The notes under the pieces were generated by a model that made no database searches, was not told where the DNA came from, and worked only from the letters and a program-made list of their open reading frames with translations. Position numbers and translations under genes: made by a program. 64,000 bases of DNA from Paludibacteraceae bacterium. GTDB lineage: Bacteria; Bacteroidota; Bacteroidia; Bacteroidales; Paludibacteraceae. The first letter of the stretch is position 1, and each line of letters starts with the position of its first letter. Of the stretch, positions 34,527 to 46,857 are shown in pieces. The stretch is from contig JAFYQJ010000011.1 of the NCBI GenBank assembly GCA_017547145.1, positions 124,001 to 188,000 on the forward strand. The letters are read 5' to 3'.

Positions 34527-34602
34527 ATAAATTTGTTTTTAAAATTTTCCTACTCACTTTACGGCTTTTCGGGTTACTCCGTAGCACCAGAAAAATCTAA
34601 AC

Positions 34603-34843
34603 TTACGCACATAAAAATAGCGTGGTGCTAAAATTTGTTTTCTTTGGGTCTTGAGGATTTCTGGACTACCTTTCTTACCAAATAAACGAACAAAGCCCAC
34701 GCTTCTTGCGTGTTCATTTTAGGCTTATTCTTGGTAAGAAATCTTAAAAGTGTCCAGTTTTCAAGACCCAAGAGCGACTTAAAACGCTATTTCCAATATT
34801 TTCAAGATGTGCGTAAAAATTACGCTAATTTATTTCATAGGCA
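34603..34843 (+). repeat. Structured element A: nested hairpin with switch-like outer stem
   Basis: Within a 400-base gene-free gap, successive arms pair inward: TTACGCACAT (34603-34612) with ATGTGCGTAA (34807-34816); AAATAGCGT (34615-34623) with ACGCTATTT (34784-34792); TCTTTGGGTCTTGA (34641-34654) with TCAAGACCCAAGA (34761-34773); CTGGAC with GTCCAG; and TTTCTTACCA (34671-34680) with TGGTAAGAAA (34732-34741), enclosing a GC hairpin ACGC-TTCTT-GCGT. The arm GCGTAA can instead pair with TTACGC at 34820-34825. The end TTTATTTCATAGGCAAAA is shared with element B at 46.5 kb. No coding potential is seen. It could be a regulatory RNA leader for the U32 peptidase gene or a mobile repeat. Confidence 0.7.
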
Positions 34844-34926
34844 AAACTATTTTCAAAATTCGCTCAAAGATAAGCATTTTTAAAACTCACACATTAAATT
34901 TTTATCTTTGCAAAAAGAATAAATAT

Positions 34927-46461: not shown

Positions 46462-46526
46462 AATAAATTCAGTTTAAAAAAGTTAAAAAATTTCTTTTGT
46501 TTCTGTCGCAGGAGAAGGGTTAGAAA

Positions 46527-46756
46527 TGCACACAAAAAAGCGTGGACAGAAATTTATCCACGCCCCAAGGTCCTGAGAAATACCTACACACGAACAGAAA
46601 AACTTTGTCCACGTTCAAATCGCAAACAGTTCGTGTGTTTGATTTCTTTTTATGCAGGGAAATTTCTCAGGTTTCGGGGCATTAAAATAAAGCAAACGCT
46701 TTTTCAATATTTCAAGGTGTGCAAATCACACACAAAAAATTTTATTTCATAGGCAA
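46527..46756 (+). repeat. Structured element B: homologue of element A
   Basis: It occupies most of a 396-base gap. Arms pair inward: TGCACAC (46527-46533) with GTGTGCA (46717-46723); AAAAAGCGT (46535-46543) with ACGCTTTTT (46696-46704); GCCCC with GGGGC (46676-46680); CCTGAGAAAT (46572-46581) with ATTTCTCAGG (46662-46671); ACACACGAAC (46586-46595) with GTTCGTGTGT (46629-46638). GTGTG can instead pair with CACAC at 46727-46731. The block AACGCTTTTTCAATATTTC to TTATTTCATAGGCAAAA aligns with element A. A local hairpin GCGTGGA/TCCACGC competes with the second stem. Confidence 0.7.
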
Positions 46757-46857
46757 AAAAATTTTTAAATTTTGTATATCCAAAAATACAAAAAAAAAGA
46801 GTTATTAGCTTTTAAAAATCAATGAAAGTATCAAGGTTTTTGTTTTTTATTTAAATC

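Follow-up and report, generated by a model that had tools for sequence, protein, structure and literature searches.

The Bacteroidales are a major order of gut bacteria, and we know of few regulatory RNAs in them. One of these is the tetQ leader, reportedly described by Wang et al. in 2005. Its leader ORF has 3 codons, and its hairpins are simpler than those of the element reported here. The tetQ leader of Bacteroides CTnDOT controls translation through an ermC-type attenuator, in which a ribosome on the leader ORF picks the fold (review PMC5418344). Like our element, it is a Bacteroidales leader that combines a short leader ORF with alternative folds, a likeness drawn from description only; unlike our element, it serves a single antibiotic-resistance gene. 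In the toiL uORF leader of E. coli topAI, ribosome position changes leader structure and downstream expression (PMC12121999). This leader shares the short uORF but differs in its toxin-antitoxin target, its phylum, and its reliance on a ribosome-binding site and Rho-dependent termination (PMC12121999). DUF805 and DUF805b (RF03081 and RF02914, clan CL00115) are likewise Bacteroidales cis-regulatory RNAs that lie just before start codons, and they stand directly 3' of many copies of the element. However, they are only 35-68 nt long, have another structure, and are also found without the element, while B and many other copies lack DUF805b.

The window, the whole 64,000-nucleotide stretch of DNA analyzed here, holds two copies of the element, A and B. 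The first-pass annotation had placed B at 46527 to 46756. Element B is real, but its RNA is on the minus strand and extends past both of these limits, to 46500-46507 on one side and 46781-46788 on the other. The earlier observation is correct but understates what is present: it had not recognized that the RNA comes from the minus strand, that it includes a mini-ORF and a pseudoknot, or that it sits as a leader before a regulon of exported-protein genes. Element B is laid out as follows.

46781-46788, minus strand: promoter -7 box TATTTTTG (consensus TAnnTTTG), from sequence
46742-46758, minus strand: conserved box TTTTGCCTATGAAATAA, enclosing the mini-ORF
46742-46750, minus strand: mini-ORF ATG-AAA-TAA (Met-Lys-stop)
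46717-46733, minus strand: 5' hairpin H0, GTGTGTG..GCACAC, rival of P1 for one arm (swap test and pair count)
46717-46725, minus strand: 5' arm of P1, TTTGCACAC, containing TGCACAC (swap test)
46692-46717, minus strand: conserved core CCTTGAAATATTGAAAAAGCGTTTGC
46697-46704, minus strand: 5' strand of P2, AAAAAGCG, within the conserved core and able to pair with CGCTTTTTT
46562-46680, minus strand: long rod, GCCCCGAAACCTGAGAAAT (46662-46680) with ATTTCTCAGGACCTTGGGGC (46562-46581)
46629-46639 with 46586-46595, minus strand: inner hairpin of the rod
46534-46563, minus strand: hub and terminator-like hairpin, GCGTGGATAAATTTCTGTCCACGC-TTTTTT (local fold -13.3 kcal/mol)
46545-46552, minus strand: 5' strand of the pseudoknot, TTTCTGTC (swap test)
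46527-46533, minus strand: 3' arm of P1, GTGTGCA (swap test)
46500-46507, minus strand: 3' strand of the pseudoknot, GACAGAAA
46024-46461, minus strand: gene led by B, encoding a 145-aa protein

Element A has the corresponding parts.

34583-34846, minus strand: element A as a whole
34865-34872, minus strand: promoter -7 box
34830-34838, minus strand: mini-ORF
34811-34825, minus strand: H0, GCGTAA..TTACGC
34807-34816 with 34603-34612, minus strand: P1 arms TTACGCACAT and ATGTGCGTAA
34761-34772 with 34642-34654, minus strand: rod
34695-34712, minus strand: apical hairpin
34613-34625, minus strand: hub
34624-34629 with 34583-34588, minus strand: pseudoknot
34547-34582, minus strand: DUF805b motif (RF02914), directly 3' of A, at 35.6 bits, exactly the gathering score
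33960-34526, minus strand: gene led by A, encoding a 188-aa protein with a signal peptide

As had been noted, the P1 arms differ between the copies while their pairing is retained (TGCACAC/GTGTGCA in B, TTACGCACAT/ATGTGCGTAA in A), and the alternative partner changes in step (TTACGC in A, CACAC in B); on the minus strand this partner is part of a competing 5' hairpin. The minus-strand fold of B beats 200/200 dinucleotide shuffles (z = -5.8) and its plus strand gives z = -3.2. A plus-strand RNA for B was rejected on this poorer fold and on the G-U pairs, which indicate the minus strand. For A, fold energy alone leaves the strand undecided (z = -5.5 on the minus strand versus -6.7 on the plus strand), and we place both RNAs on the minus strand because of their downstream genes, promoter box, and many G-U pairs.

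Pairs were tested on up to 97 copies in all. We used an anchored, alignment-free swap test in which the arm of one copy is paired with the partner region of another, with 5000 permutations. The outer arms of P1 (z = 11.2, 96 copies), the H0 hairpin (z = 9.3, 76 copies), and the 3' pseudoknot (z = 12.7, 96 copies) were each matched by 0/5000 permutations, and the negative controls gave z of 0.2 and -0.4. In the larger subtype (37 copies), 78 pairs were 93.5% standard and 28 of them showed two-sided changes, a result reached by none of 500 shuffles and by no slid control; the copies are related and shuffle or permutation counts are not strict probabilities, so the weight rests on the slid controls and on swap tests between clearly different arms. 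On MAFFT columns alone, H0 was 85.6% paired and a +2 slide was nearly equal in covariation score. H0 is weaker there because copies differ by one-base shifts, and the alignment-free test was therefore preferred. A global mutual-information ranking of column pairs was noisy at the available depth, its top matches including rod, apical, pseudoknot, and hub pairs but also unrelated ones, and the evidence used for the fold is the swap tests and pair counts. These comparisons support a predicted closing helix P1, a competing H0, a 3' pseudoknot, and a long rod. The earlier argument from three-way covariation, that selection acts on RNA structure, is borne out by the swap tests on the arms and the alternative partner.

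Element B, a paralog (L047), and the sister-species ortholog (L200) fall in a small subtype that has a distinct rod; in that ortholog, one G-U pair of B is G-C. Elsewhere, L010 and L050, which precede one gene in sister species, keep the ends of the element but have quite different rod sequences, as would result from an exchange of rods among copies or from fast drift with compensation.

A and B have only one long stretch of sequence in common, a block that ends in ATTTCATAGGCAAAA. The first-pass annotation read this block as conserved sequence, which was confirmed, but it is not merely a sequence motif: it comprises the mini-ORF and the structured core. The conserved box reads TTTTGCCT-ATG-AAA, and an in-frame stop follows the ATG by 2-6 codons in 102/102 distinct copies, compared to a mean of 36 and a maximum of 52 in shuffles. 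The predicted peptides are MK, MKH, MKHSV, ME, MKK, and others, and the stop falls at, or just past or within, the 5' strand of H0. Copies without the early stop have an in-frame stop past the H0 strand in 23/25 cases (one codon later in L123), compared to 13/48 copies with the early stop (P = 7e-8, related copies not being fully independent). All three stop codons (TAA, TAG, and TGA) are used there, which speaks for selection on the stop as such. On these sequence comparisons, the conserved block is a mini-ORF under selection, and it is presumably translated. In one genome, ACG replaces the ATG of the mini-ORF in two copies (L045 and L046), with the in-frame stop still present. A conserved second ORF from the P1 3' arm was rejected, as frame 0 had early stops no more often than other frames.

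The Bacteroidetes -7 box consensus is TAnnTTTG (PMC7366714). This motif lies 25-65 nt upstream of the mini-ORF ATG in 69/106 copies versus 3.7 expected from shuffles, and it is not enriched between the element and the gene (4/90 versus 4.7 expected), which implies that the element is a 5' leader. In nearly all copies, the element is on the same strand as the downstream ORF and at a similar distance from it, with the gene start ~270-330 nt past the box in most of 96 copies. The downstream proteins carry an export signal in 80/96 cases versus 79/311 other ORFs of the same loci (odds ratio 14.7, P = 2e-24), as called by a home-made heuristic with a strict rule. The strict rule was adopted because a lax signal-peptide rule flagged 52% of background genes. 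Target functions are otherwise diverse or without assignment, and ten downstream proteins searched against Pfam mostly matched no family. For the 145-aa protein downstream of B, we found no Pfam match and saw no export signal. Taken together, the genomic context supports the element as a putative cis-acting 5' leader, mostly of genes for exported proteins.

The 5' arm of P1 has two mutually exclusive partners, the H0 strand and the P1 3' arm, and both covary. The hub strand (GNNCC-CGC-U6-7) has three alternative partners: P2, the apical GYGCGG (GCGTGG-type) strand, with which it is 96.8% paired with covariation, and the strand of the pseudoknot further downstream. A normal terminator-like hairpin arises in B, where the hub can pair with a second GCGTGG nearby. 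Such a hairpin is clear in B and two other copies, and elsewhere there is a long-range alternative helix. In most copies this helix would span ~70 nt and compete with an apical hairpin that forms locally, which makes termination questionable for copies not of B's subtype. In ViennaRNA, H0 was dominant when the transcript was cut at the U-run (median 0.89), P1 was dominant in the full-length transcript (0.80), and masking the mini-ORF footprint removed H0 and raised P1 to 0.98; in B itself, masking raised P1 from 0.50 to 0.74. This modeling fits a translation-operated switch. Two features of the attenuator class were found, namely a short ORF near the transcript 5' end (102/102 copies, with stop retention and a promoter box upstream) and mutually exclusive structures of which one overlaps that ORF (H0 and P1 share an arm). 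By analogy, the element looks like leader-ORF control of the tetQ or toiL kind.

A mini-gene of 2-6 codons with alternative folds thus looks like a translation-operated switch for a surface-gene set. We consider it fairly probable that B is the 5' leader of the 46461-46024 mRNA on the minus strand, that it belongs to a large cis-acting family of the Bacteroidales, and that a ribosome on the mini-ORF shifts the fold and sets expression. In this model, transcription would begin ~20 nt upstream of the mini-ORF, and before polymerase passes the U-run, H0 would form and hold the 5' arm of P1. A ribosome on the mini-ORF would mask the 5' strand of H0 and free that arm, which would favor the closed fold, with P1, P2 over the U-run, and the 3' pseudoknot. 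Read-through into the downstream gene, or its translation, would then depend on the fold chosen by the hub; that gene usually encodes an exported protein. The leader position, strand, folds, mini-ORF selection, and exported-protein bias find support in the comparisons above; the order of events, termination or translation as the output, the direction of control, and the signal are what we infer. Against the switch model, TTGCCT 5' of the ATG is conserved more than an initiation site needs, the downstream protein of B does not look exported, termination by the long-range helix is questionable in copies not of B's subtype, and the two ACG variants have no mini-ORF ATG.

An unlikely alternative, though the best of those considered, is a ligand- or protein-sensing, riboswitch-like leader, in which the internal loops would be the binding site and the mini-ORF would do no more than set the basal level of translation or the stability of the RNA. 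A large fold with a pseudoknot and almost invariant loop segments would suit such a leader, as would the cis position and the many copies with one target type. However, a plain riboswitch would not be expected to show selection on the mini-ORF stop or an overlap of the mini-ORF with a switching hairpin, and the targets are functionally diverse. We give a still lower probability to stand-alone genes for trans-acting small RNAs that end at the U-run and lie upstream of genes by chance. Their own promoter box, the U-run, and the terminator-like hairpin of B would be accounted for, but orientation and spacing to the gene are fixed in nearly all copies, the pseudoknot strand past the U-run covaries, no promoter is enriched before the gene, and the exported-protein bias is left over.

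The search for further copies, which the first-pass annotation had named as a check, found them, with arm changes that keep pairing. A fuzzy search gave 12 clear copies of the shared block on several contigs of the same genome, and models of the 5' core raised this to 15 copies, including A and B. The sister species had 17 matches, and other scoring Bacteroidales genomes had 1-9. In 84,980 named genomes, scanning by pattern found 95 stretches. Among the 80 of 95 listed, all but two are in Bacteroidales or in records labelled only Bacteroidetes; the matches listed come from Alistipes, Rikenellaceae, Paludibacteraceae, Bacteroidaceae, Muribaculaceae, and Dysgonomonas, and mainly from ruminant, deer, and termite gut assemblies. 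One copy (L118) is in Dysgonomonas sp. 511, a cultured strain. The other two matches (L135 and L163) were set aside as due to chance, as they use the longest allowed gap, and L163 lacks the rest of the element. No relatives outside Bacteroidales were found in the scans of named genomes, and among 395 genomes sampled from the phylum, none but the one holding the window scored. A viral origin was rejected on zero exact-pattern matches in viral contigs. A mobile or repeat element (REP-like, MITE-like, or an attachment site) whose structure is kept for mobility is very improbable: many dispersed copies per genome, a patchy distribution, and orthologs of the B gene without the element in G021 and G023 would fit it, but the copies keep one orientation relative to genes, unlike position-independent REPs, the mini-ORF is under apparent selection, the arms are deeply diverged with compensation, the element is kept before orthologous genes in the sister species, and viral contigs hold no exact-pattern match.

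Other leader sequences were seen near the element. Before the G023 ortholog of the B gene (L201, about 1080-1500), a recurrent leader, GGAGTGAAACTGCA..CAACACTT..AAAACGGGCA, stands in for the element; in other loci (L065, L070, and L166) it comes after the element. This sequence is possibly another Bacteroidales leader family. In four loci, mostly of termite-gut genomes (L056, L125, L158, and L165), the stretch from the element to the gene contains a GTCTG..CAGAC hairpin and, after it, GTTAAAC or GTAAAAC.

The first reading knew of no named family for the motif, and indeed no Rfam 15 model reached its gathering threshold on the element body, either in the window or in 20 related loci. Below threshold, B had no credible Rfam match, the best being trpB at 23 bits versus a cut-off of 59. 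DUF805b (RF02914) and DUF805 (RF03081) matched neither B nor any element body; a DUF805-type tail reached gathering only as a separate 3' tail, in A (35.6 bits), L087, and L092, and this optional DUF805b tail is absent from B. DUF805b without the element (L075-L084) occurs just before start codons, where 6/9 readable downstream proteins look exported, and this motif may serve the same set of genes as a second leader. The element is a new RNA family; we found no named one for it, and an earlier description in the wider literature is possible.

More tentatively, and as a possibility rather than an expectation, the element could be a gene-control RNA of a new class: a switch of ~270 nt with a pseudoknot, run by a mini-ORF of 2-6 codons, present in more than a dozen copies per genome, and used as the common leader of exported-protein genes of the Bacteroidales, so that the making of surface and secreted proteins would be tied to translation status. 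The family is large, highly structured, and outside Rfam, with up to ~17 copies per genome, and it marks a set of genes for exported proteins; it therefore may reveal shared control of cell-surface composition. The putative sensor ORF can be as short as two codons and overlaps the switching hairpin, which would make it a clean example of the lower size limit of a translated regulator.
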